A stretch of DNA of 64,000 nucleotides from positions 11,034,278-11,098,277 of the forward strand of contig NC_134030.1 of assembly GCF_964204645.1 (NCBI RefSeq), in the 5' to 3' direction. The translations under genes were made by a program, and so were the position numbers. Positions 19,098-45,031 of the stretch are shown here, one piece after another. Each line of letters opens with the position of its first letter. Position 1 is the first letter of the stretch. The notes under the pieces were generated by a model, which was given only the letters and a program-made list of their open reading frames with translations, was not told the DNA's origin and searched no databases. This DNA is from Tubulanus polymorphus. Its lineage: Eukaryota > Nemertea > Palaeonemertea > Tubulaniformes > Tubulanidae.

Positions 19098-19236
19098 CAC
19101 CCGATACACATCCTCTTCTCCGATACTTTATTAAAGAAGGGTAAACCTTCATTCGATAGTCTATCGCCCCGTGTTATAGTATACTATATTATGGTAACCC
19201 TTCTTAGATACTCATCGCCAGAAGGGCGAGCGCGTT
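19098..19236 (+). repeat. Left terminal inverted repeat (139 bp)
   Basis: It aligns without gaps to the reverse complement of 44893-45031 with about eight mismatches by eye (about 94%). Most differences are C/T transitions. Similarity fades after GCGCGTT. Confidence 0.92.
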
Positions 19237-19486
19237 AACACTCGGTCGTTTATTCTGGGATTCGAACATCAACAGTATTGGCCGTAAATCGGTCGACATT
19301 CTGCATTTTTAGTGAACGTGGCGCGCGTTACTTTTTTTACTTAAAACCCACTGGATCTTACGATACATCGTCGTCGATAAACGTGAATTAAAGTCTATTA
19401 TTATCTCTAAGTAGATTGATCAAGTAAGTCATTTGCACGTCGTCGAAGAAGAAAGCCTTACCGTTAATCCAAATGCATTTAATAAC

Positions 19487-19926
19487 GGTCCTCCTTATTA
19501 CCCGAGAGGGCGAGATCAGATGACGTATTTACCGAGATGACATAAAGAAATAGGCCTATAACATATTTATTTATTCCCTATCGATTTTAACACTTGAAAT
19601 CATATTATATCAGTAATAAATGCCTACTGGAGTCATATTTTACATATTTTATCGGATATTTTTGTAGAAAAATATCTTTACTGAGATGAGATCGTCGATC
19701 AATCAAATCTAATGAAATTTTATTGCTAACTGAGATTACGATTAAGTCAAATTTTTTTTACAAAATATCCGGAAAAATATGTAAAATATGACTCTAGAAG
19801 GTATTTATTACTGATGCAACATGATTTCAAGTGTTAAAATTGATAAGGAATAGTTAAATATACTAGGTTATATTTCAGGTCATTGTCATCTCGGTAAATT
19901 ACGTCATCTCGGTAATAAGGAGGACC
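19487..19926. mobile_element. Foldback MITE nested in the left arm
   Basis: GGTCCTCCTTATTACC at the left is mirrored by GGTAATAAGGAGGACC at the right. The inner parts are also palindromic (ACATATTTTATCGGATATTT against AAATATCCGG..ATATGT). It is 440 bp with no frame. No clean target duplication was found. Confidence 0.75.
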
Positions 19927-20447
19927 CTTTTATAATGGAAATCGAAAATGGGTAATGCATAATGCCTTAGATTTCCGGGCCTAGTATAAATTCCAACTTA
20001 GCCTCGGCCTATTCAGTATTTTGCCGACCTTTTCATTATTTTATTAAATCAAATAGGCAGTGCGCCACCATGGCCGTATACTCAAAGTGCTGCCAGTGAA
20101 TCACCGCTTTAGGCCTAGTACGGGCATGGCTACTGCATTAATCGCCCGAAATATTCAGTCGGTGACGACAAACGCCTAGTGAATCACCTGAATCAAACTT
20201 AAAATTTTCGGCCGATTATTTTTAGGAAGTGGTTATTTAGCCAGATCTGGTTACCGACTTAAAAGATATTTTGCCGGATCCATATATTATGTATAAGTAA
20301 AATCATTAGGCCTATATTGGGTTTAGGGTTAGGGTTTTGATAGGGTTAATGTCAAGAGGGTGAGAAGAGGGTCCAGGGTTTTGTTTCACAACTAGGGATA
20401 GGGTTAGGTGGGGCTATATATCTAGTTAAAACATTCGGGTGGTTTTC

Positions 20448-20522
20448 AGCGAGCTCGGTGGTCTAGTGGGAAGACGCTGCGCTAGGTGAATTTACTGACC
20501 CGGATTCGAGTCTCGCTCTGCT
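20448..20522 (+). repeat. tRNA-like head of a SINE
   Basis: TGGTCTAGTGG matches the pol III A box and GGATTCGAGTCTC the B box, ~38 bp apart. The ends AGCGAG and CTCGCT pair like an acceptor stem, but the T-arm stem is poor. It is more likely a SINE head or tRNA pseudogene than a working tRNA. The SINE body may continue to about 20720; its end is unclear. Confidence 0.5.
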
Positions 20523-41794: not shown

Positions 41795-43068
41795 AACTAG
41801 GGGTCCAGGGACACCATGCCCACTTGGGAAGTGGTTTCAAATGCTCAACAATCTAACAATTTCAATATTCAACGCCCTCTGGTGACCATATACAAAAACC
41901 AATGACCTTCAACCCAATACAATCATAAAACATGTCAGCAGCTACGATTTTGTAATTGATTGTGATAACAAAAAATGCCACGTTACTAATTTAATATGGA
42001 AATACTAAGTTAATCTACTATTCAACGCCCCCTGGTGACCATATTCAAAACCCAATAACCTTGTAACTCACCATATTCATAGAACATGTCATGAACTACA
42101 ACTTCGCAATTGATCATGGTAACAAAATATGCCTAGGTACCAATATAATAAGGAAATACCAGGTTATTCTACTATTCAACGCCCCCTGGTGACTATGTAG
42201 AATTACTGATTTCCTTAAAACTCACCACAATCATAGATGATGTCATGAGCTACAACTTTGCAATTGATTGCGGTAACAAAATATGTATTGGTACAAATAT
42301 AATATAGAAATACTAAGATATTGTATTATTCAACGCCCCCTGGTGGCCATATACAAAAAACAATGAACTTGAAACTCACCCCAATCATAGAACACATTAT
42401 ACTCTAAAACTTTCTAATTCATTGTTGTAACAAAATATGCTTAGGTACCAATATAATGTCGAAAAACTTTTTCCCACCTACGAATGAGTACTAATGACAC
42501 CAAGATGGCTGCCAATTGCGTCATAATTGGCGGATCAAAAATACCTATCTCGGGTATAAAACATCCCTTTACAAAGAATACCCATCACAAATTGCAATGA
42601 GAAATGGCAAACCAGTAGGAAGCTACAGGACCTAGAATTCTGGCCAAAATTGACATTTTTGGGCACTAAAAAGGTCATAGGACGGCCATCTTGAGTCAGA
42701 TGGACCCAATTTTTCTTATGCTGATGGGCCCTTGGTAGATTCAAATATATTCGAAAGATCAAGGTAATTGATCATATCGTCTTCAAAATTTCCCTCGTAA
42801 ACTTCGAAAATGTGTAAAAAGTGCTGATTTTGGCAAACAACAATGGCTGCCAGTCGGCCATGTTGATTCTGATAGGGCCAGTTTTTGGGCTGAAGATGTG
42901 TCTAGGGTAGATACATGTATAAACCAAATATCAAGACATTACCTTGAAGCGTCTTCAAAACTTCCCAAAATAACTGGATTCCGTCTACGGACAGACGAAC
43001 AGATGGACGGACGAAAAGTGAACGCAATAGCCCGCTGGGACTTAAGTCCCAAGTGGGCTAAAAAAGTT
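41795..43068 (-). repeat. Right copy of the long inverted repeat
   Basis: It is the reverse complement of the 28455-29939 family: AACTAGGGGTCCAGGGACAC at its start, ~150-bp units with CAACGCCCCCTGGTGACC, then CAAGATGGCTGCCAATTGCG. It continues to an end with GGGACTTAAGTCCCAAGTGG near 43060 that the left copy lacks. The pair encloses 29940-41794, which holds the satellite and the three cargo genes. Confidence 0.85.
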
Positions 43069-43783
43069 TCATTTTTAAGTCATAAAAATTCACCCTATGT
43101 GGAAAATATGTTCGTCAGTCATGGTGACAATGTTCAAATTCAAGAAATCTCACAAAATGGAGGATTTTCTCTCCTATTCAACTGGACTAAAGGAGTCTTT
43201 TTGCCAATCCATCTAATTGGTGCAGAACTGGAATAATATTGGATTTCGGTTGTTGTCCACGATTTTTGGGAATCTGTTAAGACCTAAATGAGGTACGTTC
43301 CCCAAAAAGTAAGCGAGATATCCCAACATAGTACGGAAGCCCTGAGACGAATCTTTATGTCGCGTAATTTCATAATGTCGTGCATGGCCAAATAAACTCG
43401 AAATCTCATTAACTTGGGAAGTTATGAACTGGGGAACTCGTGAACCCAAGATGTCGTCTCAGGGCTTCCATACAACAGAGAAACAGGCGTGAAGCTAACA
43501 CTAACAGGGGTCATTCATTTATTACACGCTAGAGCCAGGAGGGGGGAAGGGATAAGTGCAATAGCGTACTGTAATGCTTAATGTAGATGCAAAAATGGCC
43601 GATTTTGCATACTGAGGGGAGGGGGGTTGAAAAATTCAAATACTATGCGTACTGTACGTAATAAATGAATGATCCCCGAAGTAGGCCTGCTAATAATGTC
43701 AAGCATGAGGCGTGGAAAACCCAAACTACTACGTCTATTTCAACTTGACTTGAGAGCACATCAGGTGGCCTAGCTCGCTCATT

Positions 43784-44603
43784 TTTGGTAGTACATACCT
43801 GGTCTTATTAGACCAGAAAGCACTGGCAGTGGATCTAAAACATCATTTTTTAATCCATTTGAAACTGTATTAAAAGATATCCAAAACGTCTGCATTGAAA
43901 GGGGATTAGGCCGCCTAAAGCCGGGTGCACACCTTTGCGATCATCGCGACATCGTATCATCGCATGCGATGTAGCGATGACACGATGAAAATCGTATCAT
44001 CGCCGCATACCTTTGCTATTTTTATGAGGGCCTCGAGTTGGATTCAATCACGTGACTGAGCCGCTGATTTTGAACATCATATGACTGCTTCATCCTTAAT
44101 TCTGATTGGTTACTAAAAATTTTTATCCGGAACATCGGCAGCGTAGCCCGCAGACCTTTCTTATCTCACGGAAAAATCGCATACGAAAATAAGAAACATG
44201 TTTGATTTGTTGCGATGTAATCGGCTCCGGATGCCACCGCATACCTTTACAATGATGCGATAAAACCATGCGATGAAGCGATCATACGATCAATCGCAAA
44301 GGTGTGTGCCGGGCTTAAATAAAGAAATTTGACTCAATAATTTGAAAGTTTAACAATAGGTTTCCATGCCTACACACCAAACTTCAGTTGAGTTGGTAGG
44401 CATGGAAACATATTCAGATATTGATAAACATTTAAATCATAATCATGGAGTCTCTTTTCTCTCATGAACCTCTTTCAATGCAGACTTTTTGGATGTCCTT
44501 TAAAGCAGTTTAAAATTGATTAAAACACGATGTTTTAGGTCAGCTGCCATTGCTTTCCGGTCGTAGTGAGACTTTTATCAGGACAGGTATACGTGTACCA
44601 CCA
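43784..44603. mobile_element. Foldback element in the right arm, hosting a second MITE
   Basis: The outer arms (near GGATCTAAAACATCATT..., and ATCCAAAACGTCTGCATTGA) recur inverted at 44480-44603. The boundaries are approximate. The centre is interrupted by the 43919-44315 MITE and by a short hairpin at 44361-44412 (GTTTCCATGCCTAC and its inverse). Confidence 0.65.
43919..44315. mobile_element. TAA-flanked MITE nested in the foldback element
   Basis: The ends are AGCCGGGTGCACACCTTTGC and GGTGTGTGCCGGGCT, flanked by TAA at 43916-43918 and 44316-44318. A 3-bp TAA duplication fits Harbinger-like elements. The interior is rich in GCGATGA/ATCGTATCATCGC palindromes. Confidence 0.75.
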
Positions 44604-44892
44604 TAACTGACTGAGTAGGCCACCCGGTATGCTTCTCACGAAATGTCACAAGTCAGGTTGAAATTGAAAATGAAATAGACATTAGGCCACCTTACTTACC
44701 AGTGTACACGGGGATTGGATGCAGATTGTCGTCTTGATCGAATTCAGGCCTAAAATCCTTGTAAAACGCGATTGTTATGCCAGCCGGAGGAGTTTTGTAT
44801 GGCCCAAATAGGCTTCGTCCTTGAGAAGATGGATCTGTCGATAACAACCGACAGTCATGCCGAACTAAGTACCAAAATATAAATTTGCGACC

Positions 44893-45031
44893 AACGCGCG
44901 CGCCCTTCTGGCAATGAGTATCTAAGAAGGGTTACCATAATATAGTATACTATAACACGAGGCGATAGACTATCAAATGAAGGTTTACCCTTCTTTGATA
45001 AAGTATCGACGAAGGGGATGTGTATCGGGTG
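44893..45031 (-). repeat. Right terminal inverted repeat (139 bp)
   Basis: It is the reverse complement of 19098-19236, ending GGATGTGTATCGGGTG immediately before ACATATC at 45032. Confidence 0.92.

Follow-up and report, generated by a model that had tools for sequence, protein, structure and literature searches.

Evidence for a giant KDZ DNA transposon with two passenger genes in the ribbon worm Tubulanus polymorphus

Described KDZ elements and the Tubulanus locus

DNA transposons of the KDZ (Kyakuja-Dileera-Zisupton) group include giant members. According to the accessible part of PMC12477816, they reach up to 30.3 kb in Ectocarpus and 31.7 kb in Chlamydomonas, where the element was seen moving, and giant elements generally carry additional genes and insertions of other elements nested within them, while their transposase genes are often broken. 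We analysed a stretch of 64,000 nt (hereafter the window, from whose start all positions are counted) from the palaeonemertean ribbon worm Tubulanus polymorphus. Positions 19098-45031 of the window are occupied by an element, termed W (C6 when listed among the copies in the genome), which is very probably a giant KDZ transposon with its own transposase gene and two passenger genes, one encoding a zinc-finger protein and the other a GTF2I/chromodomain protein. W resembles the Ectocarpus and Chlamydomonas giants in size class, and giant elements in general in the nested insertions, extra genes and broken transposases of its family; its host is an animal, whereas theirs are algae.

In the available sections of PMC12730594, two fungal Kyakuja families, Kyakuja-1_LB and Kyakuja-2_LB, are described as having 7-bp target duplications and CA..TG termini and are said to be without terminal inverted repeats (TIRs), and Zisupton is given 8-bp target duplications. 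When compared with these sections, W shares with the two fungal families a KDZ transposase, 7-bp duplications, CA..TG termini and the presence of an accessory gene, although the latter is a TET/JBP dioxygenase in Kyakuja as against the zinc-finger and GTF2I/chromodomain genes of W. It differs from them in its 139-bp TIRs, its animal host and its length of 26 kb; the absence of TIRs, a character reported for the two fungal families only, does not hold for W. As far as the descriptions at hand go, W has in common with fish Zisupton a KDZ transposase, TIRs, a multi-exon gene and an animal host. In contrast, the cysteine cluster is of the CxC2/CxC1 type in W and CxC7 in Zisupton, and the duplications are of 7 bp in six of the seven elements of the W family, with none in the seventh (C8), instead of 8 bp. 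An earlier reading of the window (the original prediction) had set the 7-bp duplication apart from the 8 bp of Zisupton. The figure for Zisupton stands, but duplications of 7 bp do occur among KDZ elements, namely in the two fungal Kyakuja families (available sections of PMC12730594).

Two further systems were considered. The KDZ1-3 elements of Cryptococcus neoformans are about 9-11 kb long, with TIRs of 139-241 bp and duplications of 8 bp (KDZ1) or 4-8 bp (KDZ2 and KDZ3). Like W, they combine TIRs, a CxC1 plus KDZ core, few full-length copies and recent movement; unlike W, they are shorter, and no such cargo is described in the accessible text (PMC12810828). The Zisupton-like genes of Pristionchus pacificus are similar to W in having a multi-exon KDZ transposase, an invertebrate host, TIRs and recent copies, whereas the accessible text reports no target duplications detected and describes no giant element (PMC9297572).

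Since giant KDZ elements have been described in algae and 7-bp duplications in Kyakuja, the kind of element that W represents is already known. Within what could be searched, its novelty lies in three points: it resides in an animal, it is resolved as a unit of 26 kb, and its cargo consists of a zinc-finger and a GTF2I/chromodomain gene. Among titles and the beginnings of abstracts, with papers behind a subscription (including the first descriptions of Zisupton and KDZ) set aside, no ribbon-worm KDZ or giant transposon and no GTF2I transposon cargo was found, and GTF2I is not mentioned in the main text of PMC12062965. The original prediction contained neither the passenger genes nor the family of several copies nor the 7-bp precedent in Kyakuja, all of which the present analysis adds. 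As a complete, recent and multi-copy giant KDZ element of an animal, in which the exact ends, the duplications and an empty site can all be seen, W makes excision and insertion directly testable.

Ends, empty site and copies of the element

W is bounded by inverted ends of 139 nt each, which are 94% complementary, and the word ACATATC, found at further places in the window too, stands immediately outside both of them (Table 1). Both features agree with what had been predicted. A local segmental duplication (7670-19097 and 47976-59686, main pieces 87-94% identical) provides the empty site, the insert being present in just one of its copies. The left flank of W aligns with one stretch of the paralog at 93.1% identity over 1469 columns, and the right flank with the adjoining stretch at 92.3% over 1190 columns. 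In the paralog, the overlap of the two alignments coincides exactly with the 7-base duplication, which confirms the uninterrupted site with a single ACATATC that the original prediction had pointed out.

Table 1. Features of W and its surroundings in the window, and members of the W family in the genome
Feature	Position	Strand	Length or structure	Remarks
Left target site duplication	19091-19097	.		ACATATC; flank comparison
Left TIR	19098-19236	+		starts CACCCGATACACATCC; inverted-repeat comparison
KDZ transposase gene	21493-27943	+	15 exons, 854 aa	gene model, GT-AG introns, no stop
Transposase exons 1-5	21493-21745, 22618-22889, 23737-23848, 24057-24274, 24357-24476
Transposase exons 6-10	24639-24809, 24903-25042, 25255-25372, 25496-25582, 25677-25857
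Transposase exons 11-15	25929-26018, 26096-26148, 27012-27246, 27351-27517, 27596-27943
Tandem array	28803-29868	.	154-bp unit	inverted relative to array 41866-42468
Tandem array	30485-33475	.	189-bp unit	array length varies among W, C8 and C4a
Zinc-finger gene	33756-35437	+	3 exons (33756-33972, 34030-34270, 34360-35437), 511 aa
GTF2I/chromodomain gene	36983-41170	+	16 exons in model, 472 aa
Tandem array	41866-42468	.	154-bp unit	inverted copy of 28803-29868
Right TIR	44893-45031	-		ends CGGGTG; inverted-repeat comparison
Right target site duplication	45032-45038	.		ACATATC; flank comparison
Single ACATATC of paralogous empty site	58517-58523	.		flank alignments 57071-58523 and 58517-59686
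C6 (W)	19098-45031		25,934 bp	perfect 7-bp duplication
C8			25,407 bp	no target duplication
C4a			25,394 bp	perfect 7-bp duplication
C12			25,832 bp	perfect 7-bp duplication
C2	C2:16337389-16378435		41,047 bp	perfect 7-bp duplication
C4b	C4:13752511-13809253		56,743 bp	perfect 7-bp duplication
C10	C10:5845514-5856832		11,319 bp	perfect 7-bp duplication

The genome of T. polymorphus (267.8 Mb, 77 contigs) was then searched for family members with the left TIR, a check that had been set beforehand. At least 14 matches were obtained (14 of 14 first-look candidates scored; match counts are lower bounds), and these pair at element length into seven elements without any leftover end. Thirteen of the 14 element ends start with CACCCGATACACATCC, the remaining one, which belongs to C10, with CACCCAATACACATCC. 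Six elements (W, C8, C4a, C12, C2 and C4b) are referred to below as the long copies. C10, the seventh and shorter one (11.3 kb), is diverged in sequence but bounded by the same TIRs; in its interior, decayed remnants of KDZ exons on the opposite strand and a piggyBac-like frame were recognized by eye. The long copies other than W lie at separate places, and each can be aligned with most of W. The target duplications of the six elements that have one are six distinct words (ACATATC, ACGTTGC, CATTCAT, GATTATC, AGTAAAT and GCTACGC), the chance of one 7-base flank match being 1 in 16,384 per pair. Copies ending elsewhere than at these TIRs, or solitary ends, would have spoken against a single element; all further copies terminate at these TIRs, and none of the 14 matches is a solitary end. 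Judging from the shared ends, the largely shared interior and the duplications that each further long copy except C8 has of its own, the whole 25.9 kb behaves as one mobile unit and has moved as such, as was originally proposed.

The host-like multi-exon genes and the large tandem arrays inside W would also suit two small elements with the same TIRs flanking ordinary host DNA, or an assembly join. We consider this exceedingly improbable, as the TIR matches pair at element length, the interior is common to six long copies at separate places and 7-bp duplications are present at six of the seven outer flanks. Spread of a 26-kb block by segmental duplication or ectopic recombination, instead of transposition, is likewise very improbable: while the flanks of W sit in a local segmental duplication and C8 lacks a target duplication, the 30 bases to each side of the element differ from copy to copy, the other six elements have target duplications and a paralog without the insert exists.

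Transposase and passenger genes

The protein encoded by the 15-exon gene of W matches the KDZ domain of Pfam (PF18758) with an E-value of 6.7e-42 (144 bits, cut-off 26.6, residues 329-548), so that the KDZ identity given in the original prediction is upheld. Its N-terminal cysteine cluster matches CxC2 (6.9e-9) and CxC1 (8.5e-7), both above the Pfam cut-off. The nearest relative is the annotated T. polymorphus LOC141907738 (P0001), an NCBI model of 888 aa that differs from ours, by eye, just between the exons ending at 26148 and starting at 27012. For comparison, 24 animal proteins were found and 21 of them aligned (P0017, P0023 and P0024 were left out). Residues D335, D458 and E514 (P0001 numbering) are invariant in all 21 and are presumably the catalytic residues of a DDE core. 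In a tree of these 21 proteins, which includes no labelled K/D/Z references, the Tubulanus protein is on a long branch (2.32) without resolved placement. Among the six long copies, W, C8 and C4a have an open transposase frame.

The KDZ family of the transposase, the TIRs and the duplications suggest cut-and-paste movement. The multi-exon DDE-type transposase would bind the ends starting with CACCCGATAC, cut out the whole 25.9-kb unit and place it into a new site opened by a cut staggered by 7 bp, from which the flanking duplication would result. Copies with a broken transposase could be moved in trans, and the family may be active at present.

Both passenger genes were modelled by hand. The zinc-finger protein includes three C2H2 fingers behind an N-terminal part without known domain. 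NCBI LOC141909803 (P0027) is apparently the same gene of another copy, and when residues 1-330 were searched, the sole relative found was one Tubulanus protein. The zinc-finger frame is stop-free in five of the six long copies (W, C8, C4a, C12 and C2).

The GTF2I/chromodomain protein is 100% identical over 94% of its length to NCBI LOC141904631 (P0025, 445 aa), apparently the corresponding gene of another copy; besides it, the search found a single relative, a chromodomain protein. P0025 contains a GTF2I-like repeat (5.4e-10) and a C-terminal chromodomain (6.7e-14), both above the Pfam cut-off. In the PDB, the cargo protein matches the chromodomains of HP1 and MPP8 and a repeat of GTF2IRD1 (2dzr, 1.9e-5), and aromatic residues are aligned at the positions that we take to form the aromatic cage of HP1 and MPP8. 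In vertebrates, GTF2I-type repeats are the hallmark of the TFII-I family. The frame of this gene is open in three of the six long copies (W, C8 and C4a). As the three element genes are publicly annotated as uncharacterized loci, they may mislead gene-family counts.

The genome was also searched with the GTF2I family and with the whole cargo protein. Both searches go exon by exon, and a diverged host gene split by introns may escape them. The family search yielded six matches, one per long copy, all of them weak (24.7-25.2 bits against a cut-off of 27, E about 0.005, single exon). The protein search, with 95 of 134 candidates scored, yielded 57 matches, of which 53 lie inside the six long copies and four lie outside them, the latter with the chromodomain end only. 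At this coverage, no GTF2I gene copy was found outside the long copies. The cargo joins a chromatin-reader domain to a GTF2I-like repeat, which the searches made did not find anywhere else in the genome, and it poses a testable question about the origin of TFII-I repeats and the use of chromatin readers by giant transposons.

Age, constraint and nested elements

Divergence between the copies was estimated from non-coding differences from W, arrays excluded. These amount to 2 of 14,941 positions in C8, 70 of 14,821 in C4a, 85 of 13,551 in C12, 109 of 13,923 in C2 and 312 of 14,244 in C4b. The value for C8 indicates a very recent separation from W, unless gene conversion made both alike, and by these differences the family has moved recently. 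When the three genes are pooled, exons show proportionally fewer changes than non-coding DNA; this holds for C4a (9/5520 versus 70/14821, p=0.0009), C12 (p=6e-5), C2 (p=0.02) and C4b (p=5e-5), while C8 is too similar to W for a verdict (p=1). The ratio dN/dS is below 1 in three of the four informative copies without reaching significance, and the contrast between exons and non-coding DNA alone is significant. The coding parts thus appear constrained overall; for the cargo alone, selection is not proven.

Several observations weigh against the interpretation of W as a giant KDZ transposon with its own transposase and cargo. The transposase is broken in three of the six long copies, by a one-base loss in C12, by two stops in C2 and by decay in C4b. 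C8 is without target duplication. Two paralogs of its left flank continue unbroken exactly at the TIR boundary, a point in favour of the transposon reading, but what follows there does not match the right flank of C8, so that the right side of this copy must have been rearranged or lost. Pooled dN/dS values of 0.33 (C4a), 0.32 (C12), 1.11 (C2) and 0.60 (C4b) all miss p<0.05, and the evidence for selection on the cargo is weak. In addition, an AlphaFold model of the GTF2I/chromodomain protein, made without alignment, had a pLDDT of 39 and was not used.

Some of these figures bear on whether the passengers are chance bystander genes, kept by hitch-hiking and without any role for the element. A bystander origin, which we judge somewhat unlikely, agrees with a dN/dS not significantly below 1, with a GTF2I/chromodomain gene broken in half of the long copies and with the few relatives found (one Tubulanus entry per gene, for the zinc-finger protein within the searched residues, and one chromodomain protein), but not with both genes being open in the same three copies as the transposase (W, C8 and C4a), with the lack of a further GTF2I gene copy among the candidates scored in the genome or with the lower rate of change in the exons of the three pooled genes. 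The passengers probably act on DNA or chromatin on behalf of the giant KDZ transposon, either in the choice of targets or in its expression within silenced chromatin. A bolder proposal, and in our opinion quite an unlikely one, is that the zinc-finger and chromodomain/GTF2I proteins form a mobile chromatin module, in which reading of methylated histone tails would serve W in targeting or anti-silencing, and that giant KDZ transposons spread GTF2I repeats among animal genomes.

C2 contains about 18 kb and C4b about 33 kb of surplus sequence. Most of it belongs to another element, unrelated to the KDZ transposon and bounded by inverted ends of 314-369 bp, the insertion place of which differs between the two copies. 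In C2 this nested element encodes a retroviral-type integrase (rve, 1.3e-9) and includes a 1305-codon frame that by eye looks like a protein-primed polymerase, the piece of it sent to Pfam being without match. We call the nested element, provisionally, Maverick/Polinton-like. The nested insertion of C4b also contains internal tandem duplications. W itself was considered as a Maverick/Polinton, a kind marked by a retroviral-type integrase, a protein-primed polymerase and capsid genes, and this was rejected: blastn at 1e-20 gave no match between W and the Polinton-like insert in C2, and the W frames scanned match KDZ, CxC, C2H2 and chromo domains over the cut-off.

Another KDZ family is present in the genome. 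About 8.5 kb of it is common to two places at 96% identity. One end runs into arrays of a CCCTAA-like, telomere-like repeat, and comparison of the two places revealed no TIR. Outside W, the window contains a 24-bp tandem array of 16 copies (2613-2997), which is open in a frame on either strand.

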